Positions 8,321 to 39,047 of a DNA stretch of 40,280 nt are shown one piece after another. Each line of letters opens with the position of its first letter. Within the stretch, counting starts at the first letter, position 1. The stretch is taken from assembly GCA_902575815.1 (NCBI GenBank), contig CACGTA010000010.1, positions 1 to 40,280 on the forward strand. The letters are read 5' to 3'. The notes under the pieces are model-generated. The model was not told the DNA's origin. It made no database searches and saw nothing but the letters and a program-made list of their open reading frames with translations. The position numbers and the translations under genes were made by a program. The DNA comes from an uncultured Alphaproteobacteria bacterium. GTDB lineage: Bacteria; Pseudomonadota; Alphaproteobacteria; HIMB59; GCA-002718135.

Positions 8321-8324
8321 ATTA

Positions 8325-9176
8325 TTAGCCCTTTCCTGCATTCATGGATCCTAAAGTTAATCCTCTGATAAAATGTTTTTGTAATAATAAAAATATGAGT
8401 AACGTTGGTATACTAGCCATAACTGTAGCTGTTAAAATTGTGGGGCCATCCATAGACGCATATAAATCTTTCATACCTGTAAGTACTGTTGTTATAGGTC
8501 GAACTCCCACAGAACGAGATAAAACCATTCCAAATAAGAGATCATTCCAAATCCATGTAAATTGTATAAGAAATACTAATAACAGAGGTGCTTTAGCCAT
8601 TGGGAGCATAATTTTATATAATATTTGAAAGTTTGAAGCGCCCTCTATTTTTGCTGCTTCTTGTATTTCCCAAGGTACAGTCAAAAAGAAACCTCTTAGT
8701 ACAAATGTTGCAAATGGTATACAGAGGCCAACATAAACTAATATTAAACCTATTTTAGTATTATAAATTCCTATAGCAACGTAAGCTTCAAACAATGGCA
8801 GGAGATACATTTGAAAAGGGAAAACAGTTCCAGAATAAATTATCAAAAACCATATAAGTCCGTTTTTAATTTTTAATCTAACTATTCCATAAGCTGCAAT
8901 AAAAGCAAAAAAAACAGCTAGAGCAGAACCTGCAAACCCATATAATAAACTATTTAATACTCCATCGCCTATTCCTTTATTCCAAGCTGTTATTGCATTA
9001 TCTATTATTGAAGTACCCCAAATAATTTCAGTCTTATCACCTTTTGCATATTGTGAAGCTGTTTTATTAGCATTTACTACGAGAAAGAATACTGGGTACA
9101 ACCAGGCCATTACTATGATTGCCATTGCTGAAAGGCCAGTTACTATTTTTATTCTTTCAATAGTTTTATAATTCAT
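8325..9176 (-). CDS. CUT1 ABC transporter B permease, MalG type
   Basis: Inner-membrane sugar permease (283 residues) with about six spans. The first hydrophobic helix includes AWLYPVFFLVVNA. The EAA loop reads QEAAKIEGASNFQILYKIMLP and the C-terminus has HFIRGLTLGSMNAGKG. It starts two bases after the stop codon of the partner permease and ends four bases before ATG of the GH38-like gene, so the three are almost certainly cotranscribed. There is an unusually long periplasmic loop after helix 1 (about residues 33-75, with TSQYAKGDKTEIIWGTS), which some MalG relatives have. Confidence 0.9.
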   Translation of the reverse strand: MNYKTIERIKIVTGLSAMAIIVMAWLYPVFFLVVNANKTASQYAKGDKTEIIWGTSIIDNAITAWNKGIGDGVLNSLLYGFAGSALAVFFAFIAAYGIVRLKIKNGLIWFLIIYSGTVFPFQMYLLPLFEAYVAIGIYNTKIGLILVYVGLCIPFATFVLRGFFLTVPWEIQEAAKIEGASNFQILYKIMLPMAKAPLLLVFLIQFTWIWNDLLFGMVLSRSVGVRPITTVLTGMKDLYASMDGPTILTATVMASIPTLLIFLLLQKHFIRGLTLGSMNAGKG

Positions 9177-11418: not shown

Positions 11419-14079
11419 TCATAACATCAATTTTAAAGTTTTAATTTCATTTTCTACAAATGAAAGTTTAAAACTATTTTCATCATTTTTGACTTCATCC
11501 AGATTTTTTTCTAGAATATTTGTTTCATAAATCTTCTTAATATTAAATTTGATTTCAAATTTACATTCACAATTTTGTTTGCCCAGATTTTGTGCTCTAA
11601 TAATAATAGAATTTGAATCACTACTTGGCTTAAGAGTATAATTAATTAATTGTGAGTCACACGAAATAAATGTTTCCTCAATTTTATCTGAAACTCTTTT
11701 TTTATCTCTTAAAATAATAGGTGGAGATAATGAGTCTAATCCAAATTTAAATGAAGTAGAATTATCAAAATCATGGGAATGTGTCTGAAATCTAAAGCGA
11801 AAGGGAATTAAACCATCTTGTGATGCTTTAAAATTTACCATCCAATGATTATTTATTGCCCAAGAATAAAGATGAGGCCCTTCAGGATTTAGATCACCAG
11901 TACCAGTCCACTTTCCAGCAGTAATACCACCTAAATTTAGCAAGGGTGCATCTAAAGATGCCATTGAGATACCTTTTGAGCCATCTGATACATTAATATA
12001 TCGATGTACCGGATACCAATCTTTAGCAGCTCCTGTTAATTGATCATCATTAGGAACTGAATTAATTCCATTTAGATCTAAATTAAATTTAAAATTTTCT
12101 AAATTTAAAGGGAACGCGAAAAAAACAGCTTCTGGGTCTGTTACAGGCTTTTTATCAATAGACCAATGAACATTTAGTGCTTTTATATTTTTCTGAAGAA
12201 AAATAACACAAGTTCCTTGCATTATACCTTTAGCTTGAATTGATATTTCAATTTTTACTTCATCATTTTCAATTACTGCATCTTTAACTATGACCTTTTC
12301 AGGTTTAGATCTAATGTAAGGAGTGTCTTTTAGTCCAATAAAAAAATCATCATGCGAAAAATCAAAATTATTAATTGCTAATCTTCCTTCCTTAGAATCA
12401 ACTTCTTCATAAATATAATCTCCAAAACCATGATTGTTAACTTTTGAAGCAAAATTGTAGTCGAGTTCTTTATCAAAAAATTCTTCTATAGTTCCATTGG
12501 TAGTATCTACTTTTATTCTATAATATTTATTTTCAATTATATTTTTATTTGAAACTAGATCTGTCTGATCATCAGATTTTGAGATATCAACAAATTTATA
12601 TCCAAATGCTGGAAGCTTAGTAGAAATTTTTCTTACCGGTGTATGTGGCCTAAAACCACCCCAACTCGCTCCTCTTTCAAAAAAAGTGTCTAGCACTCCA
12701 ACAGGAGCCAAACCCCATCTGGCTTCTGGCTCTTCAATTACAATTTCTCGTTCAAACGGTAGAGTATTTATTACTAAAAGTTCATTGGAATTAGGATCTG
12801 GATAAGCAACTGATTCTTCATGATCTCCAAGATTAAAGTTACCCTCAACTTTTTGATCTGCAGAAGCAGATGTTGAATCATATAATGGATCAGATACCAG
12901 TTCAGCAAACTTGTTTGAAGATTTGGCAAGAAGATCGTGTGTTTCCATAGCAGCATTGTATGCATACCAAGATTTTTTATTCCAAATTGCTTTTGAAAAT
13001 AATGACTCTGGCATATCTATTGAAGTATAAGCTCCCCAAGTATGCTCGTCATATAAAGTCATGTTCTCATATATAGATTCGACTTTTTTGCTATTCCAAC
13101 CAGATTTCTCAAATATTTTTAAAATAGACTCAGTTGCTTCATAGGATAATAAAAGTTCATGGGTTTTTCTATTTAATCCTGTTTCGTAACTACTTGATCC
13201 TGGTCCATCAGTCCAATGATCTGTCCAATCGCCTCTTTGCGTTTGCATTTTATCTTTATAATCTTCATTAAGTTTTTTACCAAACTCAGAAACAGTTAAA
13301 AATTCCATCTTCAATTCGTTATTCTCATTCCAAGATTTTACAAAATTAGACATTCTTTCATCAGGAGGACCATTGTCTACTCTAATTGGATGAGTTGACT
13401 CACAATATAAAAAGTCATAATTATAAGAATCATCATTTTCTAATTTATTTAGAAATCTAGGTAAGAGTTTATCTGTAAATTTTTTATTACCAAAACCCAC
13501 TTGACTTCTTCCGAATAAATAATGAAATCCATTCCACGCTATAATATTTCTTTTAGAAGGTCCTTGCCAGATAAATGCACCTGGAAATGGTTTGACTCTT
13601 GCGCCTCTAATGGGATTAACTGCTATTGAAAAAAAATCTATACCTATCATTGATAATAATTCAGCGAATACCCAACTAACTCCATTGACATCATCCTGCA
13701 TCGCAGCAGTAATATCAATATTGTAATCATCTTTTAATATTTTAACTGGATACAAACTCCGAATCATTTGTTCCATACTTAATAAAGGTGTGAAGTTATA
13801 TTGCATTCCTGCTACATCAATTCTTCCTTTTTTATACCATTCAATAAATCTATCAATTTGTGATGATTTTGCATTTTTTAAATATTCGATAAATGGACCA
13901 GTTGTTTCTACAGTCCATTTGTATTTTGACTCTTTTGGATAATCATTTGTTTTTTCTATTAAATCTAAAGCTTGTTCAACAAATTCTCCGTGTTGTCTGA
14001 AACAAGCATCTTGGTAGTCAGTAAAACCAATATCGGTGTGTGAGTGGTTACATATGTAAATTTTCTTAATTTTAGACAT
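11419..14079 (-). CDS. GH38-like glycosidase 2 (alpha-mannosidase-like, cytoplasmic)
   Basis: Paralogue of the GH38-like enzyme at the other end of the same operon (886 residues). The HxHxDxG motif is NHSHTDIGFT (H14, D16). Candidate nucleophile Asp130 lies in MQDDVNGVSWV and the candidate third zinc histidine H346 in YDEHTWGAYTS. Both enzymes share GDW-x-D-x-W and NGPP/NAPP segments. There is no signal peptide. ATG 14079 is used because the longer frame begins only with TTG 14103; no clear ribosome site is seen. It heads the minus-strand operon and is divergent from the AGE isomerase gene across 73 bases, a natural place for a shared control region. GH38 relationship is strong; exact linkage specificity is unknown. 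Confidence 0.75.
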   Translation of the reverse strand: MSKIKKIYICNHSHTDIGFTDYQDACFRQHGEFVEQALDLIEKTNDYPKESKYKWTVETTGPFIEYLKNAKSSQIDRFIEWYKKGRIDVAGMQYNFTPLLSMEQMIRSLYPVKILKDDYNIDITAAMQDDVNGVSWVFAELLSMIGIDFFSIAVNPIRGARVKPFPGAFIWQGPSKRNIIAWNGFHYLFGRSQVGFGNKKFTDKLLPRFLNKLENDDSYNYDFLYCESTHPIRVDNGPPDERMSNFVKSWNENNELKMEFLTVSEFGKKLNEDYKDKMQTQRGDWTDHWTDGPGSSSYETGLNRKTHELLLSYEATESILKIFEKSGWNSKKVESIYENMTLYDEHTWGAYTSIDMPESLFSKAIWNKKSWYAYNAAMETHDLLAKSSNKFAELVSDPLYDSTSASADQKVEGNFNLGDHEESVAYPDPNSNELLVINTLPFEREIVIEEPEARWGLAPVGVLDTFFERGASWGGFRPHTPVRKISTKLPAFGYKFVDISKSDDQTDLVSNKNIIENKYYRIKVDTTNGTIEEFFDKELDYNFASKVNNHGFGDYIYEEVDSKEGRLAINNFDFSHDDFFIGLKDTPYIRSKPEKVIVKDAVIENDEVKIEISIQAKGIMQGTCVIFLQKNIKALNVHWSIDKKPVTDPEAVFFAFPLNLENFKFNLDLNGINSVPNDDQLTGAAKDWYPVHRYINVSDGSKGISMASLDAPLLNLGGITAGKWTGTGDLNPEGPHLYSWAINNHWMVNFKASQDGLIPFRFRFQTHSHDFDNSTSFKFGLDSLSPPIILRDKKRVSDKIEETFISCDSQLINYTLKPSSDSNSIIIRAQNLGKQNCECKFEIKFNIKKIYETNILEKNLDEVKNDENSFKLSFVENEIKTLKLML

Positions 14080-14152
14080 GAATTTAGTATATTTATATTG
14101 CAACTAATGACAAGGCCTTTTACTTACAAAATGAAGTTGTATATATGAAATT

Positions 14153-15334
14153 ATGGCATTTTTCTCAGAAAAATTTTTATTAGATCACATCTATAAAATT
14201 ATTAATTTTTATTATCCAAAATGTATAGATAAAAAATATGGTGGTTATATCAATCAATTCTATGATGATGGGGAAATAGCAGATTATGATACAAAGCATA
14301 TAGTTGGTACCTGCAGATTTATTTATAATTTTTCAACTTGTTATAATTTATTTAAGAATAATGATTTTGCTGAAGCAGCAAAACATGGATTAAAATTTTT
14401 ATATAATAAGCATAAAAGAAAAGATGGTTCATACATATGGGTTATGGATAAGGATCAAATCAGTGATAAAACAAGACACTGTTATGGAATGGCTTTTGTT
14501 CTTCTGGCATATGCCATAGCTACCAAATATAAAATTGAAGAAGAAGATAATAAAAATAAAATCTATGAAACATATAATTTCTTAGAAAATTATTTTTTTG
14601 AAAAAAAATTTGGAATGTATGTTGATGTAATTGATGGAGATAATTTTAATACAATAGATTCTTACCGAGGCCAAAATGCGAATATGCATTTATGTGAGGC
14701 TCTACTATGTTGCTATGAAGCCACAAGAGATACTATATTTCTAAAAAGAGCTAAAAATATCGCTAACAAAATTTGTAATGATTTAACTTATAAAGACAAT
14801 TATGTTTGGGAACACTATAATGAGAATTGGGAACATGATTGGGAATACAATATAAATGATCCCAAACATTTATTTCGCCCTTATGGGTTTTTACCTGGAC
14901 ATTTTTTTGAGTGGGCTAAATTACTAATGAATATTTACAGACATGATAATGAAAATTGGCTTATTAAAAAATCAGAGGCCTTATTTGATATTTCTATAAC
15001 TAATAGTTGGGATAAAAAAAATGGAGGAATTTTTTATACCTTTGACAGAGAGAAAAAAATTTTAGACACGGATAAATACTATTGGGTTCATTCTGAAATG
15101 ATAGCTGCAGCTGCTGGACTTCATAAATTAACGAACAATACAATGTATCTTGAATGGTACGATAAATGTTGGGAGTATGTAATACAGAACTTTTCAGACG
15201 AAAAATATGGAGGATGGTATAGGGTACTAAATGTTAAAAATGAGAAATATGACAACTATAAAAGCCCGCCTGCAAAAACAGACTATCATCCAATTGCAGC
15301 ATGTAGTGAAGCTCTATTATATTTAAAGTTTTAA
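14153..15334 (+). CDS. AGE-family epimerase/isomerase, probably D-mannose isomerase
   Basis: N-acylglucosamine 2-epimerase superfamily protein (393 residues, usual length), an (alpha/alpha)6 barrel that interconverts sugars at C1/C2. Visible active-site signatures are R55 in GTCRFIYN, NANMH (H179), PGHFFEWAKLL (H250) and KTDYHP near the C-terminus (H379). The NANMH plus KTDYHP combination is what I know from mannose isomerases and YihS-like aldose-ketose isomerases rather than GlcNAc epimerases. The setting next to mannosidase-like enzymes supports release of mannose followed by isomerisation to fructose. No fructokinase is visible in the window. It is monocistronic, divergent from the GH38 operon, and its stop codon overlaps the convergent aldolase stop by four bases. 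Confidence 0.82.
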   Translation: MAFFSEKFLLDHIYKIINFYYPKCIDKKYGGYINQFYDDGEIADYDTKHIVGTCRFIYNFSTCYNLFKNNDFAEAAKHGLKFLYNKHKRKDGSYIWVMDKDQISDKTRHCYGMAFVLLAYAIATKYKIEEEDNKNKIYETYNFLENYFFEKKFGMYVDVIDGDNFNTIDSYRGQNANMHLCEALLCCYEATRDTIFLKRAKNIANKICNDLTYKDNYVWEHYNENWEHDWEYNINDPKHLFRPYGFLPGHFFEWAKLLMNIYRHDNENWLIKKSEALFDISITNSWDKKNGGIFYTFDREKKILDTDKYYWVHSEMIAAAAGLHKLTNNTMYLEWYDKCWEYVIQNFSDEKYGGWYRVLNVKNEKYDNYKSPPAKTDYHPIAACSEALLYLKF

Positions 15335-15882
15335 ATATTTGTTGATCCAACTGCTATAACATTTTCGAGAGAAAAATAATTATCTTTATTTTCATTATTG
15401 ATACCACCAGTTGGAATGAATTTAATTTCATTAAAAATCTCTTCTAAAAACTTTAAAGATTTTACTCCACCATTTTTTTCAGCATGAAAATATTTAAGAA
15501 TGTTACAATCATACTCAATTGCGGTTAATATCTCTGACGGAGTTGAGACACCCGGAATAAATAAGAACTGATTTTTCTTTGCAAAATCTAACATTTTTAT
15601 ATTAGTGCCGGGAGATACATAGAAATCAAATTTAAATTTAGTAACTTCTTCAAACACTTTTAAAGATTTGATTGAGCCTAATCCAATAGTTATGTTTGGA
15701 TTTTGTTCCTTTAAATTTATAGCTGTTTCTAATGCATCATGACTTCTTAATGTAATCTCGATGACTTTATATTTTTCTAAAACAAGTCTATTAAATTTAT
15801 CTATTATATCTTGAGAACTTCCTTTCCCAATAATTGGTAAGATTTTTTGATTCTCAATTACTTTTATAATTTCAGTTGACAT
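15331..15882 (-). CDS. eda: KDPG/KHG aldolase, C-terminally short
   Basis: 2-keto-3-deoxy-6-phosphogluconate aldolase, a class I Schiff-base enzyme yielding pyruvate and glyceraldehyde-3-phosphate. The catalytic pieces are present: IEITLRS (E42 and R46) and the Schiff-base lysine K130 in LKYFHAEKNGG, where E. coli Eda has KFFPAE. GVST and PTGGIN follow as expected. It is 183 residues against about 205-213 in the family: the protein stops at the VGSTNI segment that aligns with GGSWLV, losing roughly 27 C-terminal residues. The Pro-to-His change beside the active lysine is also unusual. It is the last gene of the array, overlaps KDG kinase by 11 bases, and takes the kinase product as substrate. 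Confidence 0.82.
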   Translation of the reverse strand: MSTEIIKVIENQKILPIIGKGSSQDIIDKFNRLVLEKYKVIEITLRSHDALETAINLKEQNPNITIGLGSIKSLKVFEEVTKFKFDFYVSPGTNIKMLDFAKKNQFLFIPGVSTPSEILTAIEYDCNILKYFHAEKNGGVKSLKFLEEIFNEIKFIPTGGINNENKDNYFSLENVIAVGSTNI

Positions 15883-16788: not shown

Positions 16789-17628
16789 TTACTTATATAA
16801 ACTTGAAATATCTATTTCGGTAATATGCCATCTACCTAAGTTTGCAGTATACATGGTATTGCCATCTTCAGATATTGCAATATTTGTTGGATGCGCCATC
16901 GTTGTACAATGTTTATCTTCTATTAAAAGTTTGGTATCACCTTTAGTATCAGCAATATAAATTCTTGAAGGTTCGTAACAACTTATAAATAAGTTATTAT
17001 CTTTATCAAATGCTAAACCATCTGGAACTACAGCAATATTTTCTGTAAAAATTTCTTTTTTACCAAACGAGCCATCATCGTTAATAGGCAATCTTGAAAC
17101 ACAAGGATGGAATGATTCAACCACATATAAAAAATTACCATCAGGGGATAAACACATGCCGTTTGCAAAATTAAATAACTCTTCAGAGCAAGGACCTCCT
17201 GCACCACTAGTTAAATCAAACTTATAAAGACCAATTCCTTTTTCATTAAAACCAAAACTATCTGAAACATATATACTATTTCTTTTACTATCAATTACAG
17301 GATAATTTGGTATTTTTGGACCTTTAGCAAATTCTGTAAAAGTTTTATTACTACTATCATATTTGTATAATGCAGCTTCTTTCATTTCACATGCAAACAC
17401 ATTTTTGTTTGAGTCAATAGCTATACCTAAGATAAATCCTCCACTACTCGCAAGGCATTCCATTTTAGATTTATCTTTTTCAATTTTCATTATTTCTCCA
17501 TTTTCTGTTCCACAATACACATAACCTTCATCATCCAAAGCGACCCCTTCTGGATGTTGTAATCTTGGATTAGAAAATATTCCATCATAATAAACTTTAG
17601 CTTTATCTGAATCTAAAATTGGGTTCAT
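16789..17628 (-). CDS. SMP-30/gluconolactonase-family lactonase 1
   Basis: Six-bladed beta-propeller of the SMP-30/gluconolactonase/LRE family (279 residues). It would hydrolyse an aldonolactone produced by an upstream dehydrogenase. Repeating blade motifs are seen: HPEGVALDDEGYVYCG, GIAIDSNKNVFACE, FANGMCLSPDGNFLYVVE, PDGLAFDKDNNLFISC and HPTNIAISEDGNTMYTAN. Candidate metal ligands are E20, the Asn in FANGM, and Asp in VPDGLAFD. No signal peptide. ATG 17628 follows GGGAGG with a five-base spacer, an unusually strong ribosome site for an internal operon gene. The position between a CoA-transferase-like gene and kdgK suggests lactone opening within the same route. Confidence 0.83.
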   Translation of the reverse strand: MNPILDSDKAKVYYDGIFSNPRLQHPEGVALDDEGYVYCGTENGEIMKIEKDKSKMECLASSGGFILGIAIDSNKNVFACEMKEAALYKYDSSNKTFTEFAKGPKIPNYPVIDSKRNSIYVSDSFGFNEKGIGLYKFDLTSGAGGPCSEELFNFANGMCLSPDGNFLYVVESFHPCVSRLPINDDGSFGKKEIFTENIAVVPDGLAFDKDNNLFISCYEPSRIYIADTKGDTKLLIEDKHCTTMAHPTNIAISEDGNTMYTANLGRWHITEIDISSLYK

Positions 17629-17639
17629 AAATACCTCCC

Positions 17640-19370
17640 TTAGTTTAAACTTTTAATTAACTCTTTTTCTTTCTTTATTATATCTTGAAGCAATTTTATT
17701 CTTTCTTCACCACTTGTAAACTCTAACTTTCTAATATTAAGAGGATCAACTATATTTCTTAATATTTTTAACTGCTTTGGTGTTGGTGATTTAGTTAGCT
17801 TGCAATTTTTGTGATACTTTACTTTAAAGGAAGTATTTTGTTCTATTTCTGTTTTTGAAACACCTTTATGAATACTAATAACTTCAAGTAATCCTGTTTT
17901 TTTATTTTTTTCGAAAATACAGAGATTGGTAAAAATTTTAACATATCCTGGCTGTAAGCCTGCTTTCAATCTATCCTTATCTTTAAAAACACCTCTTCCA
18001 GCACTTACATAATCTACTTTTTCAACAAAACTTAGCTTTGAATGTTTTGTAACATAACAAACAAAATGCTGATGAAGATTAGAAACATCTGCCATACCCC
18101 CTTGACCAGGTAATCTTAATGTACCTCCACTCTTTTTCTTGATTTCAATATTATTAACATCTCCATATTTATCAATTTGAGCAGCTCCTATAACTTCATG
18201 TGTAATTTGACCATTTTGATAATAAATACTGTAGGAGTCATCTCCTCCCCAAAAATTTATACAAGTTTCTCTGTCTAAAACCTCGCTAAACGATAATGTC
18301 ATTGGTCTAAAACTTACATCGTGATGGCCATATGTCATTGTAGTTAGTATTAATTTTGGTGCATGTAGTTTTTTTGCAAGAAAGTAAGAAACATTTGCTA
18401 ATGGTGAAACAGCACCAGAACTACATAAGCTATTATTATCGTATTCATTTGCTAGCGCAAAAGCCATTATTTCATCACTTGTTGCTTTACTTTTTGACGT
18501 ACTATTTTTGATATTTTTAGATAAATATTCTTTAAAAAATTTTGAGTCTAACTTATTCGATTTAGTTACAAAACTTTTATTCTTTTTAAAACTTTTACCA
18601 ATTTTTAGTGGTGTTTTAGCGAAGGCATTTTTCAGATCTTCATAATCAGTTATGTAATAAGGTACTGAAGATGTTGGATAGGCACCGTAAGGAATGTGAG
18701 CAATAGCTTTAATAAAGTTTTTTGAGATCAAACTCCCTTTTTTTTCACGTGCCAGAACGTCTCTTGGTACAACTTCATCAACTGTTACAATTACTTGCTT
18801 ACTAGCTCCTGCCATAATTGTATCAAGTGCTCGAGGGCCTAAAATTTCTACATTTCCGTCTTCATCAGCTCTACTAGCATGAAGAAGAAAACTATCAATT
18901 TTTAAAGATGGAACAATTGCAAACTGATTTTTTGAAACAGGATCTTTAAATTTTTTACAAAAATTAGTTTTATTAGGTAAATCAGACCCCCAAGGATATT
19001 GAAAGATTTCAGAATCAATATTTTGTTGTCCGGCACGTAATGCTTTGATTAAACCTAATGCAGACCAATCTATCACTTCAATTGATTTATTTTCACAAGT
19101 TTTTCGAAATAATGGAGCAAGACCAAAAATATCCAAACTTGAAAAACAAATTTGAATTTTTTTAATTGCATTTTTTTGAAGAAAAAGTTCTAAAGCTAAA
19201 CCTCCTGACCAGCTGATAAATTCCAAATTTTTTGGATTCTTATTTAATAAATTTTTTATTAAAGAAATTGGCAATCTTGCAAAGTGATGTCCCCCTATAC
19301 CAATAGACATATTGTTTTCAATTAGATCAGAAAGATAATTTAATGATTTAAATTTGGATGAAAGTTTCAT
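17640..19370 (-). CDS. Fused alpha/beta class-I CoA-transferase-like protein (GctAB/IpdAB type)
   Basis: Single 576-residue polypeptide joining domains that are usually separate subunits. The alpha-like half (about 1-260) has IGIGGHHFARLP and the SRADEDGNVEILGP segment. The beta-like half (about 295-545) has GAVSPLANVSYFLAKKLHAP, GAAQIDKYGDVNN, and SGGTLRLPGQGGMADVS. In glutaconate CoA-transferase the beta subunit carries the catalytic glutamate in VESG. Here the aligned stretch reads LTTMTYG (about 342-348) with no Glu. IpdAB-type ring-opening hydrolases also lack that residue, so hydrolase or C-C lyase chemistry on a CoA thioester is more likely than CoA transfer. It overlaps the mutarotase-like gene by one base. 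Alternatives are a non-catalytic homologue or a transferase using another residue. Confidence 0.75.
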   Translation of the reverse strand: MKLSSKFKSLNYLSDLIENNMSIGIGGHHFARLPISLIKNLLNKNPKNLEFISWSGGLALELFLQKNAIKKIQICFSSLDIFGLAPLFRKTCENKSIEVIDWSALGLIKALRAGQQNIDSEIFQYPWGSDLPNKTNFCKKFKDPVSKNQFAIVPSLKIDSFLLHASRADEDGNVEILGPRALDTIMAGASKQVIVTVDEVVPRDVLAREKKGSLISKNFIKAIAHIPYGAYPTSSVPYYITDYEDLKNAFAKTPLKIGKSFKKNKSFVTKSNKLDSKFFKEYLSKNIKNSTSKSKATSDEIMAFALANEYDNNSLCSSGAVSPLANVSYFLAKKLHAPKLILTTMTYGHHDVSFRPMTLSFSEVLDRETCINFWGGDDSYSIYYQNGQITHEVIGAAQIDKYGDVNNIEIKKKSGGTLRLPGQGGMADVSNLHQHFVCYVTKHSKLSFVEKVDYVSAGRGVFKDKDRLKAGLQPGYVKIFTNLCIFEKNKKTGLLEVISIHKGVSKTEIEQNTSFKVKYHKNCKLTKSPTPKQLKILRNIVDPLNIRKLEFTSGEERIKLLQDIIKKEKELIKSLN

Positions 19371-20386
19371 TATAAAGCGCTTATAGAAAATGAATAATCT
19401 GTAAACAAAGGCTTATCTCTATAAAGTTTCAAACTGGTTGATACATGTCTTTTAGAAATCGGATTATTTTTATTCAAAGATACATGAGTTGATAATCCAA
19501 ATGCAGAGGTTATTGGCTCAAAACCAATAGTAACATGATTGCTGTTCCAAGGATATTCTGTTCTCCCTTTATTACTTACCCACATTAGAACTGAAGAGAA
19601 ATGATTTGGATTCCAAGAAAAGTTAAATTTATAGTTTTCTTCAAAATTTTCTAAAGACATGTTTCCATCAATTCCACAAAGTTGAAAAAGGTCTTCAAAG
19701 TTTCCATCGAAAGGAGGCTGTGAAAGATCAATAGTATTACCATCAAATCCCTCAACTTTGTCTAATGAAGAAAATTCTCTCCCAATTGCTCCTAAAGTTT
19801 TATCTTTTAAAACTAAACCTGGATAATTAAGTCCAAATTTAAAATTTCCAGGATTTATTTTTATTTTAGACATTTTTTTTGGAATGCGAAACATTGGATG
19901 TAAACCTATTGGTAGTTCACAATCTTCTTTTACGTGAATCTGAAGTCTACAAAAAATGTTATGAGGTTTATCATCTTGAACCTCAATTGTTCTAATCAAA
20001 TGATCAACTAAATCATTTTCAGGATAATTAATTTTAAATTCAAGCTTATTTGATTTTTTTTCAATCAATTCCCAGTTTTTATTTGAACTATAACCATGTG
20101 GTTCATTTACAATATAAGGTTCAACAGAATAAGATGCCTTCCATTCATCTGTTATATCATCTATCGGTGAGTTAATGCCAAAAGGAACACATGGAAATTC
20201 TCCTTTAAGATTTTGAAGTATGCCGGGAAGAGAATTAAAATCATCTGAATTATCATTAAGCCAGTCGGGTTCATGAAAAGGTTTTATTTTTTTTCCATTA
20301 AGATTAAACATAGGGATCATTTTACATCCTAATGCATCAATTTCAATTTCACCACCCTTCCAGCTTAAGTAATATTTTTCATTCAT
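19370..20386 (-). CDS. Aldose 1-epimerase-like (galactose mutarotase superfamily) protein
   Basis: Galactose-mutarotase-like fold (338 residues) that would equilibrate sugar anomers before oxidation. The general-acid/base candidates are visible: a histidine in PIGLHPMFRIP and a glutamate in TIGFEPITSAFGL. An early DALGCKMIP segment corresponds to the glycine-rich start of the family. It lacks a signal peptide. It overlaps the CaiB-type gene by four bases (ATGA) and the fused CoA-transferase-like gene by one base, so it is translated as part of this array. Some members act on phosphorylated or uronic sugars, so the substrate remains open. Confidence 0.75.
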   Translation of the reverse strand: MNEKYYLSWKGGEIEIDALGCKMIPMFNLNGKKIKPFHEPDWLNDNSDDFNSLPGILQNLKGEFPCVPFGINSPIDDITDEWKASYSVEPYIVNEPHGYSSNKNWELIEKKSNKLEFKINYPENDLVDHLIRTIEVQDDKPHNIFCRLQIHVKEDCELPIGLHPMFRIPKKMSKIKINPGNFKFGLNYPGLVLKDKTLGAIGREFSSLDKVEGFDGNTIDLSQPPFDGNFEDLFQLCGIDGNMSLENFEENYKFNFSWNPNHFSSVLMWVSNKGRTEYPWNSNHVTIGFEPITSAFGLSTHVSLNKNNPISKRHVSTSLKLYRDKPLFTDYSFSISAL

Positions 20387-21615
20387 GATTTTTCTATAGA
20401 CATAATTTCATTAGTTATAAAATTATTAATTTCTTCATCTGAGTATCCAAATTCTTTCAATATCTCAAAGCCATGCTCTCCTATCATAGGAACTGGTCTT
20501 GTAACTTTTGTTGGAGTTTCGCTCAATTTTACAGCAGGAGAGACAGTTTTTACTTCGCCATAATTTTTATGGTGGAATGTAGTAAACATATTCATGTGTT
20601 TCACTTGAGGATCATCGTAGACTTGTTTATGAGTTTTTAAAGGTGCAGACCAGCAACCTTTCTCAGATAATTTTTTATCCAAAAAATCTGTAGTAAAATT
20701 TTTTGTTAAGTTTTCAATATAGTGAAATATTTCATCTCTTTTCTTTATCTGTAAATCTGAACCCATTGCACCGCTTGGGCCTTCACTATATTTCTTCAAA
20801 CCTTCATCATTTAAAATTTCTGATAAATCTTCAAGAGATGCTACAGCTATTGTTATATAATCATCCTTGGTTTTATAGATTCCAAAAGGCGCTCCAGAAC
20901 CTGGATGCCCTACTCCACTTTCAGGTCTTTCAAACTCTTGGTTCAAATTTAATACTGCAACAAATTCTTGTAATTGGTGTTGTAACAAAGCACTCATTAA
21001 ATCAACTTTAATTTCTTGCCCTCTTCCAGTCCTGTTGCGGTAATGAAGTGCTGATAAAATTCCAATTACCATGTTCAAAGAACCAAGTTGGTCTGCTATA
21101 CCAGCACCTAATTGAGTTGGAGGATATGAAAATCTACCTGTATTTTTTGCTAATCCAGTAATTCCTTGTAACAATAAATCTTGACCTGGTTTATTTAAAT
21201 ATGGTCCAGATTCTCCATAACCTGATCCACTACAATAAATTATTTTAGGATTTATTTTATTAAAATCTTCATAACCATATCCTCTCTTTGCCATAACTCC
21301 TGGGCGAAAATTTTGTATTACTACATCACAACTTTCTGCCATTTTATAAATAATTTTTTTGGCCTCAGGTTTTCTTATATCTAATGCAATGGAACGTTTA
21401 TTCCTATTCCATGCCATGTAACTAGCTGAAGAATAATTACCCACCTTCTTATTAAAAAAATTCCATCGTCTAAAATCATCGCCGACATGAATACGCTCAA
21501 TTTTATAGACCTCTGCACCATAGTCTCCTAAAATTTGAGTGGCGAACGGTCCTGCTAATAAATGACTAAAATCTAAAATTTTAACATCAGAAAGTGCACT
21601 TGATTTATCTAGCAT
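20383..21615 (-). CDS. Class III (CaiB/BaiF-type) CoA-transferase
   Basis: Family III CoA-transferase (410 residues, usual size) that moves CoA between an acyl-CoA and a carboxylic acid through an aspartyl-CoA anhydride. It begins VKILDFSHLLAGPFATQILGD, as these enzymes do. NFRPGVMAKRGYGYEDF, PKIIYCSGSGYGESGP and the active-site aspartate in PGQDLLLQGITG are all present. The C-terminal domain has the usual PVPMIGEH ending. Its presence in a sugar transport operon is unusual: it implies that a carboxylic acid, probably derived from the imported sugar, is converted to a CoA thioester. It overlaps the SDR gene by one base and the mutarotase-like gene by four. Confidence 0.88.
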   Translation of the reverse strand: MLDKSSALSDVKILDFSHLLAGPFATQILGDYGAEVYKIERIHVGDDFRRWNFFNKKVGNYSSASYMAWNRNKRSIALDIRKPEAKKIIYKMAESCDVVIQNFRPGVMAKRGYGYEDFNKINPKIIYCSGSGYGESGPYLNKPGQDLLLQGITGLAKNTGRFSYPPTQLGAGIADQLGSLNMVIGILSALHYRNRTGRGQEIKVDLMSALLQHQLQEFVAVLNLNQEFERPESGVGHPGSGAPFGIYKTKDDYITIAVASLEDLSEILNDEGLKKYSEGPSGAMGSDLQIKKRDEIFHYIENLTKNFTTDFLDKKLSEKGCWSAPLKTHKQVYDDPQVKHMNMFTTFHHKNYGEVKTVSPAVKLSETPTKVTRPVPMIGEHGFEILKEFGYSDEEINNFITNEIMSIEKS

Positions 21616-22418
21616 TATTCTTTTGAATGTGAACCAGCTCCAGGCCGTGTCCTAGGTGTAATAACTAAACCACCGTCAACTCTAAAATCAGAGCCGTTTG
21701 CAAAAGCCCCACCATCTGATGCTAAATAAACTGCAGTCGCTGCTATTTCTGAAGGTTTACCTATTCTTCCAAGAGGATGCATCAAAATGAAATCATCTAA
21801 TAAAGTACCTGTACCATCTTCTTCGACAACTTGATTAACCATTTCAGTAGCTACTGTTCCGGGTGATATCGTATTTGCTCTAATATTAAAAGGACCAAAC
21901 TCAGATGCAATATTTCTTGTCATTGAAATAACACCTCCTTTAATACCAGCATAAGCAGCCCAACCTGGTAATGGTGTATGTGCTTGAACAGATGCAATAT
22001 TTATAATTGAACCACCATTATTTTTTTTTAAATATGGTATTGAATGTTTACATCCATAGAAAACGCTTGAAAAATTTATTGCTAATATTTTTTGCCAATC
22101 TTCATTAGACATGTCTGTTATAGGATATCCACCTATTGCTACAGACACATTATTTACTATAACATCTAACTTGCCATAGGCATTAACAGTATCATCAATT
22201 AATTTTTTTACCTGATCTTCACTTGAAACATCAGTATTTAATGCAATAACATTCTGTGTATCTTTTTGAATCTCTTCATTTGTTTTGAAAAGAAGAGAGT
22301 CATTAATATCCCCTACACCTAATGAAGCGCCCTCTTTTGCAAACGCAAGAGAAATTGCTTTTCCTATTCCTGACCCTACTCCAGTCACAACTGCAACTTT
22401 ATTTTCTAATTGTTTCAT
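21615..22418 (-). CDS. Short-chain dehydrogenase/reductase
   Basis: Classical SDR (267 residues) that oxidises a sugar or polyol hydroxyl with NAD(P). The Rossmann TGVGSGIG motif is at residues 12-19 and D37 after the second strand favours NAD over NADP. NNVS replaces the usual NNAG. The catalytic serine is S143 (NIASVQ), with Y156 and K160 (YAGIK). The C-terminal FRVDGG segment is the standard SDR ending. It follows the CUT2 permease by seven bases, so it is the first enzyme after uptake in gene order. A sugar 1-dehydrogenase giving the lactone for the SMP-30 protein is the simplest reading. Substrate identity is inference. Confidence 0.88.
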   Translation of the reverse strand: MKQLENKVAVVTGVGSGIGKAISLAFAKEGASLGVGDINDSLLFKTNEEIQKDTQNVIALNTDVSSEDQVKKLIDDTVNAYGKLDVIVNNVSVAIGGYPITDMSNEDWQKILAINFSSVFYGCKHSIPYLKKNNGGSIINIASVQAHTPLPGWAAYAGIKGGVISMTRNIASEFGPFNIRANTISPGTVATEMVNQVVEEDGTGTLLDDFILMHPLGRIGKPSEIAATAVYLASDGGAFANGSDFRVDGGLVITPRTRPGAGSHSKE

Positions 22419-22425: not shown

Positions 22426-23376
22426 TCAATTTTTTCTTCTTTTTATTTCATCAAAGCCAACTGCCAAAATTATTATAATACCATTAACAACCATTTGCCA
22501 TTGAGATTCTACGTTTAACATACCCAATCCATTAGAAATTACTGCTAAAATTAATACTCCTAGAGCAGCGCCTGTTAAAGTTCCTATCCCTCCTACTAAA
22601 CTTACACCACCTAAAACGACTGCGGCAACAACTTGAAATTCAAATAAATCTCCAGCTACATGATTTGCAGATCCTATTCGAGAAGCTAACAATATTGCGC
22701 TGATTGAGCTTAAAACAGAACATATAACAAAAGCAGACAGTTTAATTAATTTTATATTATAACCAGCAAGCCTAGCAACTTCTGCATTGCCCCCAATTGC
22801 ATAAAGTTTTCTTCCGTAACTAGTATTGTTCATAATATAAATAAATGTAACTAGAATTATGATTGCTATAATTGCTGCATATGGAAGAACTCCCATAAAT
22901 TTTCCATTTCCTATATAAAAGAAAAAGTCTGAATATAATTCATCTGATATTGGTCTTTGTCCTGTATATAAATAAACTGCACCCCGTAGTATAAAAAGCA
23001 TCCCTAGTGTAACAATTAAAGAACTAATGCCAAGATAAACGGTTAAAAAACCATTTACCAACCCAATCATTGCCCCAAACAATAAACAAACGATTATTCC
23101 TAAAGTAACACTCTCTGTAAAATTCATAACTTGAATAAGTGGTATTGCAACAAATGCTAATAATGATCCAATAGAAATATCAACTTCACCAGCAATTAAT
23201 AAAACTGCAAAACCAATAGATGCTATTAATATAATTGAAAGTTGACCTGAAACATTCATTATATTTCTTAAGGTAAAAAAATATTCCGATGCAAAAGAGA
23301 AAAAAACAAAAACAATTAAAAAAATTATTCCTAAAGCAACTTCTCCTCTTGCTAAATATTTTTGAATATAATTCAT
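22426..23376 (-). CDS. CUT2 ABC transporter C permease, RbsC/XylH type (second)
   Basis: Inner-membrane permease of the ribose/xylose transporter family (316 residues, eight to ten spans). Recognisable parts are LIAGEVDISIGSLLAF near the N-terminus, GLVNGFLTVYLGISSLIVTLG in the middle and VVAAVVLGGVSLVGGIGTLTG near the C-terminus, all hallmarks of RbsC. It is encoded two bases after the ATPase. Together with the permease on the other side of the ATPase it would form a heterodimeric channel; many CUT2 systems use a single permease gene. Confidence 0.92.
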   Translation of the reverse strand: MNYIQKYLARGEVALGIIFLIVFVFFSFASEYFFTLRNIMNVSGQLSIILIASIGFAVLLIAGEVDISIGSLLAFVAIPLIQVMNFTESVTLGIIVCLLFGAMIGLVNGFLTVYLGISSLIVTLGMLFILRGAVYLYTGQRPISDELYSDFFFYIGNGKFMGVLPYAAIIAIIILVTFIYIMNNTSYGRKLYAIGGNAEVARLAGYNIKLIKLSAFVICSVLSSISAILLASRIGSANHVAGDLFEFQVVAAVVLGGVSLVGGIGTLTGAALGVLILAVISNGLGMLNVESQWQMVVNGIIIILAVGFDEIKRRKN

Positions 23377-23378
23377 GA

Positions 23379-24869
23379 CTAAATTACTGAAGCCTTAAAT
23401 ATTTCTTCTTGTGTCGCTTCATTACGATCAAATTCTTTAGATATTTTACCACCGGCCATAACAATTATTCTATCGCTTAAAGTAAGTAAATCGTTCATTT
23501 CTGAAGTCATTAGTATAACTGAGAGTCCATCTTTAGCTAAATCATTAATTAGTCTTAAAATTTCTGTTTTGGCACCAATATCAACACCTCTTGTAGGCTC
23601 ATCTAATATAATTATTTTTAGGTTTCTAATTAGCCATCTACTCAATAATATTTTTTGCTGATTGCCACCACTTAGTAATGTTATTAATCTTTCAGATGAT
23701 GGGGTCTTTACTTCAAATTTATCAATATACTCATTAGAAATTTTTTTCTCTTTATTTTTATTAATAGTAAAAAGTTTCTCAAATATTTCAAGACTAGGCA
23801 AACTCATATTTTCTCTTAAGTTCATATCTTTAATAATACCTTCACCTTTACGATCTTCTGTTACATAACCTACACCATTTTTAACCATAGTTTGTGTGTT
23901 AAATTTCTTTAAGGTTTGACCATCAATATCAATAGATCCATTTGAAATATTATCATAACCGTAAATAGCTTTTGCCAGCTCTGTTCTTCCAGCACCCATT
24001 AAACCAAAAAAACCTAATATTTCACCTTTGTATAAATTAAATGAAATGTCTTTTAATTTAGATTTAGTAGAAATATTGTTTATATTCATTAAAACTTTAT
24101 CAAATGATTTAACTGGTCTATCAAATTTTTGCTCGACTTTTCTCCCAACCATATCTTGAATTAGTATCTCTTCTGAAGTATCTTTTATATCTCTATGAGA
24201 AATTAGTTTTCCATCTCTTAGAACGGTTACTTCATTTGCAATCTTAAAAATTTCATCAATTTTGTGAGTTATGTAGATGATTGCTATATTATTTTTTTTT
24301 AAATTCTCAATTACTTCAAATAATTTTTCTATTTCATTTGGCGTTAAAGAAGAAGTTGGTTCATCCATTACCACTACGGAAGCATTTTGAAATATTGCTC
24401 TGGCAATCTCTACAATTTGTTGTTCGGAAATGGATAAATTTGCAACTTTCTCTCTTACATTCAGATTAAAACCTATTTTTTTTAATAAATTATTGCAATC
24501 GTTATAAAGTTTTTTCCAATTAACAATACCAAGACTATTAACAGGAAATTTTTCAAGAAATATATTTTCTCCAACTGTAAATTCTGGAATTAAAGCTATT
24601 TCTTGATAAACTACTTTTATACCAAGATTTAAACTGTCGTTTGGATTATCAATATTTACTTCTTTGTCATCAAATAAAATTCTTCCTTGATCTTTGTTAT
24701 ATGCACCAGCTAAAATCTTTATTAAAGTAGATTTACCAGCACCATTTTCTCCCATGAGTGCATGTACACTACCAGCTTTTGCTTCTAAACTAACATCATC
24801 TAAAGCAAGAACTCCTGGAAATTCTTTTTTAATATTTTTTAAAGTTAAGGATTTAAAATTATTATCCAT
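23379..24869 (-). CDS. CUT2 ABC transporter C ATPase, double-domain RbsA/XylG type
   Basis: Cytoplasmic ATPase with two tandem nucleotide-binding domains (496 residues). Domain 1 has Walker A GENGAGKST (40-48), an LSISEQQ signature and Walker B VVMDEPTSSL. Domain 2 has a degenerate Walker A (GLMGAGRTE), which is normal for this family, with LSGGNQQK and IILDEPTRGVD. It overlaps the upstream permease gene by eight bases. It powers only monosaccharide-type CUT2 transport and would not be expected to serve the CUT1 systems here. Confidence 0.94.
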   Translation of the reverse strand: MDNNFKSLTLKNIKKEFPGVLALDDVSLEAKAGSVHALMGENGAGKSTLIKILAGAYNKDQGRILFDDKEVNIDNPNDSLNLGIKVVYQEIALIPEFTVGENIFLEKFPVNSLGIVNWKKLYNDCNNLLKKIGFNLNVREKVANLSISEQQIVEIARAIFQNASVVVMDEPTSSLTPNEIEKLFEVIENLKKNNIAIIYITHKIDEIFKIANEVTVLRDGKLISHRDIKDTSEEILIQDMVGRKVEQKFDRPVKSFDKVLMNINNISTKSKLKDISFNLYKGEILGFFGLMGAGRTELAKAIYGYDNISNGSIDIDGQTLKKFNTQTMVKNGVGYVTEDRKGEGIIKDMNLRENMSLPSLEIFEKLFTINKNKEKKISNEYIDKFEVKTPSSERLITLLSGGNQQKILLSRWLIRNLKIIILDEPTRGVDIGAKTEILRLINDLAKDGLSVILMTSEMNDLLTLSDRIIVMAGGKISKEFDRNEATQEEIFKASVI

Positions 24870-25800
24870 TTTTTTCTTTTCTTAATGTATCAAAATACAC
24901 TGCTAATATGAGTATCACACCTGGAACGACTAGTTGAAACTCTTGTGGAATACTCATTAGTATTATACCATTATCAATGACCTTAAGTATTAATATACCT
25001 AAAATTGTTCCTAAAATAGTTCCACTCCCTCCCTTAAAACTTGTTCCACCTAAAAGTACGGCGGCTATTACGATAAGCTCAAAACCTTTTGCAGATCCCT
25101 GTTGGCCGGTATCCATAAGTGAAGCTAGTATTATGCCTGCTATCCCAACCAACAAAGAAGTAATAATAAAACCAATTAACTTATATCTATTATTATTAAT
25201 TCCAGACAAATTAGAAGAAAATGGGTTACTTCCTATAGCAGTAAAATATCTTCCGTATCTAGTATAGTTCAGTAGAAAAACAAAAATAGGAAGAATTACC
25301 AACATAATAATTACTGGCATTGGGACGTTATAAACAAATCCCTGCCCAATGAATGTAAAAGCAGGTATTAAATGAGTATTGTAAATAGCTGCCATAGAAT
25401 AAATATAAACGCTTCCTTGCAAAATTAACATCATTGCTAAGGTGCCAATTAAAGAATTTACATTTAAAACTGTTCTAACCAAACCGTTTATTAGACCAAT
25501 TAAAAAACAGAAAATAAATACCGAAAAGAAACCAAGAAATAAGCTTCCACTTATATTGATGACATCCATAACAATCACAGTAACAAAGGATAGAAGTGCT
25601 CCAACAGATAGGTCTACTTCACCACTTGTTAATAATATTGTCATACCAAAAGCAACAATCATGACCGTAGAGCTTGATCGTAAAATGCTATTAATATTTT
25701 GAATACTGTAAAATTGAGGATTGTAAAAAGATAAAAATACTAAAAGTAACAAAAGTATTAAAAATAAAATTGTTTCATTTTTTTGAAAAAATTTAGACAC
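24862..25800 (-). CDS. CUT2 ABC transporter C permease, RbsC/XylH type (first)
   Basis: Inner-membrane permease of the RbsC family (312 residues). Hallmarks are LTSGEVDLSVGALLSF near residue 60, GLINGLVRTVLNVNSLIGTL in the middle and VIAAVLLGGTSFKGGSGTILG near the C-terminus. The start is GTG 25800, with no good ribosome site and no in-frame ATG nearby; the first nine bases follow an A-rich tract downstream of a hairpin. It is clearly paralogous to the second permease of the operon but well diverged. Confidence 0.9.
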   Translation of the reverse strand: MSKFFQKNETILFLILLLLLVFLSFYNPQFYSIQNINSILRSSSTVMIVAFGMTILLTSGEVDLSVGALLSFVTVIVMDVINISGSLFLGFFSVFIFCFLIGLINGLVRTVLNVNSLIGTLAMMLILQGSVYIYSMAAIYNTHLIPAFTFIGQGFVYNVPMPVIIMLVILPIFVFLLNYTRYGRYFTAIGSNPFSSNLSGINNNRYKLIGFIITSLLVGIAGIILASLMDTGQQGSAKGFELIVIAAVLLGGTSFKGGSGTILGTILGILILKVIDNGIILMSIPQEFQLVVPGVILILAVYFDTLRKEKNG

Positions 25801-25861: not shown

Positions 25862-26881
25862 TTACAGATCAGATGCGTATTTTGTGCATTTTGTTTCTGT
25901 TGGAATATTAGCTACATTTTCAAAATTAATAGCTCTTTTTTGTCCTGCTTTATCAAAGTCATAGTATTTTGCAAAGTTATGAACAGTCAAAGCTAAAGTT
26001 GGTGTAACTTTATGTTCTGGAACATCAACACCATTGAATAAATCTACAGCTAGATTCATACCAGTATAACCAACACCTTCTGGAAACATTGCTGCTTCAA
26101 CTAGGTATGGTGTACCTTCTTTTGTCATTTCATTTAAAAATGCTAAACCTTCTGAACCAGTACCTGCAACAACAAGATCATCTTCAGGTAATCCTGCAGC
26201 TCTCCAAGCTTGCAAGCCTCCTAAAGCTGAACCATCATTGATACCGTAGATAACATTTATGTTTGAATCAGCAGCTAATGCAGCAGACGCTACTTCAACT
26301 GAGCTATCAATCATACCTGAGCCGTCTAATTCATGAACTTTAACAGCATTCACATGTTGTGCAAGAGCTTCCATAAATCCAAGAGATCTTAACACAGTTG
26401 CAGATAATAATGGTAGTCCTACATCCATTACTCTTGCTTCTGATTCTCCTCTAGATACTAGAATTCTTCCAACTGCATCTCCAGCTTTGAAACCAGCATC
26501 ATAATCACAAATAGCAAATAAAGTTGTCATTCCTTTTGCAGGGTTACCTTCTAATACAACAGGTGTACCATCTGCTTTAGCTTTTCTTAAAATTGGAACA
26601 ACACCTTCTTCATTAACTGGAGTCATCATTAACACATCAACTCCTTTTGTCATGAAATCTTCTGCTTGTTGAGTTTGTTTATTTATATCTAAATTTGCAT
26701 CCATTACTTCAAGCTCTATACCCAACTCATCTGCTCTTGACTGTAAACCAAAAATTACGTTTTGATACCATTCGTGAGTACCATAGTTTACAATGTAACC
26801 AATCCTTTTAGGATTAGCTGAGACTGAAAAAGCTAAAGAAAGAGTTATAACAGCTGCTAAAAACCAACTAACTATTTTCAT
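25862..26881 (-). CDS. Periplasmic sugar-binding protein of CUT2 transporter C
   Basis: RbsB/LacI-like periplasmic binding protein (339 residues) with a Sec signal peptide (MKIVSWFLAAVITLSLAFSV, cleavage near SAN). The mature part opens KRIGYIVNYGTHEWYQN, as in ribose/xylose binders. It contains VLMMTPVNEEGVVPILRKA and VIYGINDGSALGG, the two conserved ligand-domain segments. GGGAGG lies six bases before ATG 26881. First gene of an 11-gene array. The ligand is probably a monosaccharide, sugar alcohol or cyclitol; sequence alone does not tell which. Confidence 0.92.
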   Translation of the reverse strand: MKIVSWFLAAVITLSLAFSVSANPKRIGYIVNYGTHEWYQNVIFGLQSRADELGIELEVMDANLDINKQTQQAEDFMTKGVDVLMMTPVNEEGVVPILRKAKADGTPVVLEGNPAKGMTTLFAICDYDAGFKAGDAVGRILVSRGESEARVMDVGLPLLSATVLRSLGFMEALAQHVNAVKVHELDGSGMIDSSVEVASAALAADSNINVIYGINDGSALGGLQAWRAAGLPEDDLVVAGTGSEGLAFLNEMTKEGTPYLVEAAMFPEGVGYTGMNLAVDLFNGVDVPEHKVTPTLALTVHNFAKYYDFDKAGQKRAINFENVANIPTETKCTKYASDL

Positions 26882-27036: not shown

Positions 27037-28014
27037 ATGACTTTTTTAGTTACTGGTGGAACGGGGTTTATAGGTAAGAGAGTAGTTGCAAAATTACTTA
27101 GTAAAAATATTCAAGTTGTCGCAACAGATATAAATATAGATAACGAACAAAATGATTTCGAAAAATATCTATATAGTAAAAATATCTCAATAAAAGGATT
27201 AGAACTACGAGAACTAGATATGTCATCTAAGGAGAACATAAAAAATATTTTTGATAACTATAAATTTACAAATATTATTGCGTGTGGATATCAAATGAGT
27301 AATCTAATTGACAATAATCCCATCAAAGGATCTGAGGTAAATATTGTTGGTATGACAAATTTATTTCAAGCTGTACTTGATTACAAAATTAAACGAATGG
27401 TTTTTCCAAGTAGTCAAAGTATTTATGGCACAACTTCAAAATTATTTGATGATCAACCTGTTAAAGAAGATGACTATTGTGGTCTTCAACATCAATTATT
27501 TACTTATGCTGTTATGAAATTATTAAATGAATTTATGGCTCAAAAATATATGGCATTACATAATATCAGTATTGCCTGTACACGACCATCTGTTGTTTTT
27601 GGTTATGGTAGAAAACGCAGTTCACTAATGTGGGCAGAAGAATTTGCAACCAATCCTGCTTTAGGAAAATCAGTGCATCTACCTTTCCCTGAAACAAATA
27701 AAGATAATTATATATATGTCGAAGATTGTGCTGAACAATTTATTGAATTGAGTTTGAAAGAAAAATTAAATCATTTTGTTTACAATACTGGTTCTGAAAC
27801 TGTTTCAGGTATGGAATTAAAGAAAATAATATTAGAATTAATACCCGATGCAGAGATTACATTTGATGAAAATGGAAAACCTACGCCTTTTATAGATGAC
27901 CAAGATGATCAACGTATTAGAGAAGAATTACCATTTGTGCCAAAAACCCTAAAAGAGGGAATAAGGGCACATATGAATGAAGCAAGAATAGCTCATAATT
28001 TAAACCCAATATAA
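27037..28014 (+). CDS. NAD-dependent epimerase/dehydrogenase (extended SDR)
   Basis: Extended SDR (325 residues) of the nucleotide-sugar epimerase superfamily. The Rossmann motif TGGTGFIG is at 6-13. The catalytic serine region reads PSSQSIYG near residue 124, and the YxxxK pair is YAVMK near 151. DNYIYVEDCAEQFIEL in the C-terminal domain is typical. Members of this branch include UDP-sugar epimerases and free-sugar or uronate dehydrogenases; the catabolic setting makes a free-sugar or sugar-acid dehydrogenase plausible. It is followed by the MetE-like gene after 11 bases, so the two are probably cotranscribed. It is divergent from the transporter C array. Confidence 0.83.
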   Translation: MTFLVTGGTGFIGKRVVAKLLSKNIQVVATDINIDNEQNDFEKYLYSKNISIKGLELRELDMSSKENIKNIFDNYKFTNIIACGYQMSNLIDNNPIKGSEVNIVGMTNLFQAVLDYKIKRMVFPSSQSIYGTTSKLFDDQPVKEDDYCGLQHQLFTYAVMKLLNEFMAQKYMALHNISIACTRPSVVFGYGRKRSSLMWAEEFATNPALGKSVHLPFPETNKDNYIYVEDCAEQFIELSLKEKLNHFVYNTGSETVSGMELKKIILELIPDAEITFDENGKPTPFIDDQDDQRIREELPFVPKTLKEGIRAHMNEARIAHNLNPI

Positions 28015-28025
28015 AAAGGAAAAAT

Positions 28026-29063
28026 ATGTTAAAAACAACTACTGTTGGAAGTTATCCTAGAAAAGATAAACCTAAAGATACTTTGAGAAAACCTACCGTT
28101 AGTGAAGAAGAAGCGTTGGATATGGTACAATGGGCAGTAGAAGATCAATGTAGAATAGGTCTTAATTATATTACTGATGGAGAATCTTACAGAGAAAATA
28201 TGTATTGGTTCTACCAGTTAAGAATTGACGGCGTAGATAGTAAAAATAAAAAATATAAACAATTTACTTTAGGAGGATCAACTGAAGATGTTGATTTATC
28301 TAAAGCTCATCCATTAGTTAAAGAAAAAGGTGGGTTTGGAATAGAGTGCGCAGTCGTAAATGATGAAATTAAAAATCAAAGATGGAATTTAGCTTCAAAA
28401 TGGAAAAGGGCTCAAGATACTGCAAAAAATAAAGCAGTAGTAAAACAAACAATTACCGGACCTCATATGTTGTGTAGATTTTCTGTAAATGAAAGAAAAG
28501 ATCTATATAAAAATGATATTGAGTTAGCTTATGCTTATGCAAAATGTATAAAAGATGAAATTGATCAACTGCAAAAATTAGGTTGTGAAAGAATTCAATT
28601 TGATGAACCAGTTTTAACAGAATCTCCAAATGAATGTACTTGGGCAGCAGATGTAATTAATGATATTGTTGATAGCTTTCCTAATTTGTATTTTAGTCTT
28701 CATATCTGTGGTGGAAATGCGCATAGAAAAAGAGGATATTTCGGAAAGTATGACGACATGCTTGAGGGATTAAAAAAACTTAAAGTTCATGAACTTCACC
28801 TTGAGCATTGTACACTACATTATAATATGCTTGATGTTTTTAGAAAGTATGATTTTAAAGGAAATCTATCTTTTGGTGTTGTAGATCAAAGAACAGATGA
28901 ACTTGAAAGTGTTGAAGAAGTTCATAAAAGGATTAAGCCAGTAATTGATGAATTTGGATCTGATAGGATAATTTTATCTAGTGAATGTGGATTTGGACAC
29001 GTGCCACTAGATATTACAAGAGCAAAGTTGTCAAGATTGGTTGAAGCTGCGAAAATATATTAA
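28026..29063 (+). CDS. Core MetE-like (cobalamin-independent methionine synthase C-terminal domain) protein
   Basis: Zinc methyltransferase-type barrel (345 residues), about the size of the C-terminal half of MetE; the N-terminal folate-binding half is absent. The zinc ligands are visible: H226 and C228 (SLHICGG), E260 (LHLEH) and C321 (SSECGFGH). The N-terminal TTTVGSYPR and QFDEPVL segments are also characteristic. Stand-alone core-MetE proteins in bacteria use various methyl donors, and some are not methionine synthases. Pairing with a sugar epimerase/dehydrogenase gene (11 bases apart) is odd and could mean methyl transfer from a methylated substrate. Its stop codon overlaps the convergent ATPase gene by four bases. 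Confidence 0.82.
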   Translation: MLKTTTVGSYPRKDKPKDTLRKPTVSEEEALDMVQWAVEDQCRIGLNYITDGESYRENMYWFYQLRIDGVDSKNKKYKQFTLGGSTEDVDLSKAHPLVKEKGGFGIECAVVNDEIKNQRWNLASKWKRAQDTAKNKAVVKQTITGPHMLCRFSVNERKDLYKNDIELAYAYAKCIKDEIDQLQKLGCERIQFDEPVLTESPNECTWAADVINDIVDSFPNLYFSLHICGGNAHRKRGYFGKYDDMLEGLKKLKVHELHLEHCTLHYNMLDVFRKYDFKGNLSFGVVDQRTDELESVEEVHKRIKPVIDEFGSDRIILSSECGFGHVPLDITRAKLSRLVEAAKIY

Positions 29064-37007: not shown

Positions 37008-37010
37008 ATT

Positions 37011-39046: not shown

Positions 39047-39047
39047 A

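Follow-up and report, generated by a model that had tools for sequence, protein, structure and literature searches.

SCOT and YdiF are Glu-dependent CoA-transferases of family I in which the alpha and beta parts lie in a single chain. Glutaconate CoA-transferase GctAB (1poi) and a number of Glu-bearing YESG pairs, some of which adjoin thiolases, share the PF01144 fold. Non-transferases that lack this Glu have been described on the same fold. IpdAB (6co6, 6con), a hydrolase of COCHEA-CoA, carries Gly57 of IpdB at the Glu site and does not transfer CoA (PMC5380842), and AibAB (5mzw), a 3-methylglutaconyl-CoA decarboxylase, has Cys56 of AibB there (PMC7756340). However, intramolecular CoA transfer has been measured for ThnP, a family I protein without the conserved Glu (PMC11659651), and therefore the absence of Glu is not by itself proof that transfer has been lost.

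A precedent for degradation of sugar acids as CoA thioesters is the acyl-CoA deoxyribonate pathway of Klebsiella michiganensis. The sections of that report drawn on here propose CoA thioesters of deoxyribonate and cleavage of a beta-keto intermediate, with a lactonase in the gene cluster. Their pathway uses a CoA-synthetase, a 3-hydroxyacyl-CoA dehydrogenase and a thiolase, whereas no GctAB-like hydrolase is described in them (PMC6365646).

A single-chain GctAB-type protein and its former Glu site

The window (the whole 40,280-nucleotide stretch of alphaproteobacterial DNA analysed) encodes a protein related to these enzymes, with the following features. Residue coordinates were computed as 19370 - 3(n-1).

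17640..19370, (-) strand: fused GctA-GctB-like protein of 576 aa, ATG start, no internal stop; alpha half at about residues 1-250, beta half at about residues 295-550
19059..19061, (-) strand: Ala104, at the position of catalytic Glu105 of IpdA
18318..18338, (-) strand: clade-specific GHxD loop where GctB carries Glu54, spanning residues 345-351 (M T Y G H H D), with T346, H349 and D351 of interest

An earlier note, made from the bare sequence, had placed both halves in one 576-residue chain, and the open reading frame, Pfam and phmmer all agree. PF01144 (CoA_trans) is matched twice. Residues 13-246 match alpha subunits, with AibA as the best single alpha match, and GctB (1poi_B) is matched by residues 297-543, so that the protein carries the alpha and beta domains of class I CoA-transferases of the GctAB type. 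No Rfam family was matched in the window.

Thirteen orthologues, 42-90% identical to the window protein, were aligned. Five are from low-GC marine bacteria and eight from loci for which “rhizobial-order” is our inferred label, drawn in part from plasmid-borne relatives of the adjoining genes. The closest, at 82-90%, are found in single-cell and metagenome assemblies of marine alphaproteobacteria. A phylum sample yielded three fused relatives at 44%, and the family and order samples contributed more. Such genes are rare, occurring in 7 of the 297 genomes that made up the rhizobial-order sample. A class sample of 385 genomes held no fused orthologue at E below 1e-50 beyond the window's own genome. 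The open reading frame is under purifying selection (dN/dS ~0.06 versus the marine orthologues), and 162 positions are invariant across the alignment. Because every orthologue is a single chain and lacks the Glu, neither fusion nor Glu loss is a chance event. Fusion as a unique trait was rejected, as SCOT and YdiF are likewise single-chain family I enzymes; the single-chain state is unusual only among GctAB-type proteins.

The beta-half motif reported earlier, ILTTMTYGHHDV, is present, and the catalytic Glu of CoA-transferases is indeed absent, with a non-acidic residue in the GctB-Glu54 column of all 13 orthologues. This column corresponds to T346 if the alignment is anchored on the transferase-conserved Gly of the ESG motif, and to M345 if it is anchored on the upstream HAP. 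Residue 346 is Thr or Ser in every orthologue (345 being Met, Leu or Phe), and G348, H349 and D351 do not vary. Elsewhere the column holds Glu in all eight Glu-bearing comparison enzymes, Gly or Ser in IpdAB-type proteins and Cys in AibB. Also invariant in the clade are G375-G376-D378 and THE390-392, and residues kept throughout the family in the beta half are retained, including Q398, D400, N406 and G422. Glu392, which lies just before the GAAQ strand, might on alignment grounds serve as a surrogate for the lost residue.

An AlphaFold model built from 32 sequences (pLDDT 78, pTM 0.81) has as its best Foldseek matches SCOT, YdiF and ASCT, all single-chain family I transferases, and at the level of a predicted structure this confirms the family I transferase fold. 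SCOT and YdiF nevertheless belong to another subgroup, with 13-18% identity to the fused protein. Residues 346-358 and 372-379 have pLDDT below 50 and form the active-site loop from which the geometry of a Glu or its surrogate would be read. A second model, from a family-only alignment of nine sequences, is poor (pLDDT 45).

In a maximum-likelihood tree the fused proteins form their own clade (100/100) with a long stem, which bears out the earlier proposal of a distinct subfamily. IpdAB proteins make up a clade of their own (100/100), and GctAB groups with the YESG pairs (99/98). Deeper nodes are weak, including the one joining the fused and IpdAB clades (68/79), and AibAB sits on a long branch of unsure placement. 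From GctAB and the YESG pairs, with which both halves align, the fused protein thus differs in its single chain, its T/S346 in place of Glu and its separate clade. With AibAB it shares the missing Glu and an SPLA segment upstream of the beta-half site, but Thr or Ser occupies the position of Cys56. With IpdAB it has in common the fold and a Glu-less beta site, but Thr or Ser replaces the Gly of IpdB, and Ala104 is found in all 13 orthologues where IpdA has Glu105, a residue kept in all four IpdAB-type proteins compared. The 6coj chain has A where 6co6 has E within REMDEGM; this Glu, which we take to be catalytic Glu105 (6coj being the E105A form), lies opposite Ala104 of the window protein in the alignment. 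Orthology with IpdAB was rejected on the basis of Ala104 and the separate clade.

One further locus (L031:82-3171) has tandem GctAB-type genes, two beta-like and two alpha-like open reading frames. Motifs other than ESG occupy their Glu site (for example LLAGWCI and YWGN), by which these genes are another predicted Glu-less branch.

Operon neighbours and their variation

The fused gene sits in an 11-gene run on the (-) strand, from a sugar-binding protein through a KDPG aldolase. The other genes of the run, in order of transcription, are:

25862..26881, (-) strand: periplasmic sugar-binding protein, 54-59% identity between marine and rhizobial operons
22426..25800, (-) strand: ribose-type ABC importer (permease, ATPase, permease)
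21615..22418, (-) strand: SDR dehydrogenase, glucose 1-dehydrogenase-like
20383..21615, (-) strand: class III CoA-transferase, CaiB/SUGCT/Frc-type, 410 aa
19370..20386, (-) strand: 338-aa protein with weak aldose 1-epimerase similarity (only PDB match 3nre, E = 0.08); the fused gene follows
16789..17628, (-) strand: SMP-30/gluconolactonase-like lactonase, 279 aa
15872..16786, (-) strand: PfkB kinase, best NCBIfam model 2-dehydro-3-deoxygluconokinase at 254 bits, below the cut-off of 400; marine copies only
15331..15882, (-) strand: KDPG/KHG aldolase; marine copies only

The best PDB matches of the sugar-binding protein are generic ribose and galactofuranose binders, which are uninformative on substrate. 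The CaiB-type neighbour possesses the catalytic Asp of class III CoA-transferases: its Asp175 aligns with the conserved Asp of SUGCT, its closest solved relative, and is kept in all six operons aligned. SUGCT handles dicarboxylates. By this assignment the CaiB-type enzyme would make the CoA thioester in the pathway. A role as an alpha-methylacyl-CoA racemase is unlikely, with Gln145 at what we take to be the position of the racemase His. The 338-aa protein is probably a diverged mutarotase, a weak assignment from sequence similarity. Its family matches no Pfam model at E 0.01 and is present in many alpha- and betaproteobacterial sugar operons.

All 13 fused genes lie in one operon type, whose importer, SDR, CaiB-type and fused genes occur at every locus, and this core is 42-62% identical between the marine and rhizobial groups. 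All eleven genes are collinear in four marine loci (L001-L004), and the eight rhizobial-order loci keep the importer, SDR, CaiB-type and fused genes in unchanged order, with the 338-aa gene in five and the SMP-30 gene in six. A crotonase gene directly follows the CaiB-type gene in seven of these eight; the remaining one (L059) and the marine operons are without it. The crotonase matches EchA8 at 1e-45 and retains both catalytic Glu residues. An unlinked marine orthologue was sought and rejected, the only full candidate in the window's own genome (58% complete) being 26% identical. The pairing of a class III CoA-transferase with a crotonase recalls the CaiB/CaiD carnitine module, but the sugar operons add an importer, a lactonase and the fused protein, and the marine ones do without the crotonase.

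The downstream ends differ. Marine operons finish with KDG kinase and KDPG aldolase. In two rhizobial ones (L060, L061) the fused gene or the lactonase is followed by an RraA-like gene, and in L059, close to where the contig ends, the lactonase is followed by a truncated member of the FAH family (58% identity over 101 aa to the FAH gene of L018). The substrates of these KDG kinase–KDPG aldolase, RraA and FAH modules are 2-keto-3-deoxy acids, 4-hydroxy-2-keto acids or oxidised forms of these; though different, the modules suit a 2-keto-3-deoxy acid. At L059:12660-13438 the FAH-family gene is broken after ~100 residues of homology, and an RraA-like start follows near the contig end.

In other bacteria, operons that share the 338-aa gene contain UxuA (L018, L021) or, in L019, an enzyme annotated as MR/MLE, whereas none of the classical sugar-acid dehydratases was recognised within the 13 operons, judged from the listed and annotated flanking genes. 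A UxuA-like gene lies just outside the operon of L004, on the opposite strand. In each of the eight rhizobial operons (L043, L044, L045, L050, L059-L062) the gene of the sugar-binding protein is immediately preceded by one for an IclR-type regulator. Divergent from the operon in the window, at 27037-29063 (+), are genes for an NAD-dependent epimerase/dehydratase and a MetE-catalytic-domain-like protein, a pair kept beside the operon in L001-L004 and not in the rhizobial loci.

Two large proteins of ~890 aa, at 5684-8341 (-) and 11419-14103 (-), are encoded in a sugar-rich region among several SBP-type ABC importers, the former with a GH38 N-terminal match (E 2e-14). A second sugar-acid cluster at 34986-39106 holds a further SMP-30-like lactonase together with two enolase-superfamily genes of MR/MLE type.

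Candidate functions for the fused protein

On balance, the fused protein is probably a catalytically diverged, single-chain GctAB-type member, a non-transferase that acts on the CoA thioester of a sugar acid. The earlier note had likewise expected a non-transferase working on a CoA thioester. That part is favoured by the lost Glu and by the CoA context (an adjacent CaiB-type gene, with a crotonase in seven of eight rhizobial operons), tempered by the example of ThnP. Its further suggestion was a C-C hydrolase or lyase, or a ring opener. The sequence does not indicate a hydrolase that opens a ring by C-C cleavage as IpdAB does, since Ala104 replaces Glu105 and the proteins do not group with IpdAB; the neighbours, moreover, indicate catabolism of a sugar acid and not of a ring.

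Because related operons have UxuA or MR/MLE enzymes and no dehydratase was recognised in the 13, we place, with low confidence, the CaiB-type and fused enzymes, with or without the crotonase, in the dehydratase slot, where they could carry out a CoA-dependent dehydration of the sugar acid to its 2-keto-3-deoxy form. Both the substrate and the dehydration are proposed from the gene content of the operon. The SDR and lactonase would oxidise the imported sugar to an aldonate, which the CaiB-type enzyme would convert to a sugar-acyl-CoA. In its ancestral CoA site the fused enzyme may then form or protonate the enolate of this thioester, acting by itself or, in operons that have one, with the crotonase, the candidate groups replacing Glu being the clade-invariant H349 and D351 together with T/S346. 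The resulting 2-keto-3-deoxy acid would pass to KDG kinase and KDPG aldolase in the marine bacteria, or to RraA or FAH enzymes in some rhizobial ones, with CoA being recycled by the CaiB-type enzyme or released.

The same genes can be read otherwise. If the SDR oxidised the 3-hydroxyl of the sugar-acyl-CoA or of the crotonase product, the fused protein could cleave the 3-keto thioester by retro-Claisen hydrolysis, in the manner of IpdAB, and so replace a thiolase. The CaiB-type enzyme, crotonase and SDR plus such a hydrolase resemble a thiolase-less beta-oxidation set, IpdAB has the same fold (PMC5380842), and the Klebsiella work offers a precedent in its deoxyribonate thioesters and proposed beta-keto cleavage (PMC6365646). 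We regard this route as unlikely, however, given Ala104 in every orthologue, the clade separate from IpdAB, and a lactonase and KDG kinase–KDPG aldolase that suggest oxidation at C1 and a 2-keto-3-deoxy product instead of beta-keto cleavage.

It is quite unlikely that the protein transfers CoA by another route, whether intramolecularly as the Glu-less ThnP does (PMC11659651) or through an alternative nucleophile such as Glu392 or T/S346. The invariance of Glu392 is consistent with such a role, as is the kinship of the CaiB-type neighbour to SUGCT, an enzyme of dicarboxylates, but no operon gene indicates a dicarboxylic substrate. Furthermore, a class III CoA-transferase already adjoins the fused gene in all 13 operons, with its Asp present in the six aligned, and the other characterised Glu-less GctAB-type members cited, IpdAB and AibAB, are non-transferases. 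Very unlikely, finally, is a simple thioester hydrolase releasing CoA at the end of the pathway, a step that would be needed if the CaiB-type enzyme does not recycle CoA, or a non-catalytic scaffold or sensor; against a scaffold stand the strong purifying selection (dN/dS ~0.06) and the 162 invariant positions, which take in the loop at the former Glu site.

In the library searched, neither this operon nor a CoA-dependent dehydration of sugar acids turned up in any paper, and the conserved operon, with its second CoA-activating enzyme, suggests an undescribed CoA-dependent breakdown of a sugar-derived acid. The carriers include relatives with complete genomes, in which gene knock-out should be feasible. 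If the fused protein is, as is probable, a non-transferase, it would represent, after IpdAB and AibAB, a third Glu-less line on the GctAB fold, one whose active-site signature differs from theirs. It would also place CoA thioesters in a sugar operon that looks ordinary and is shared by uncultured marine alphaproteobacteria and rhizobial-order bacteria. Should the dehydration reading be true, it would reveal a new logic of sugar-acid catabolism, one that dispenses with the metal-dependent dehydratases (IlvD/EDD, enolase superfamily, UxuA) of known pathways.
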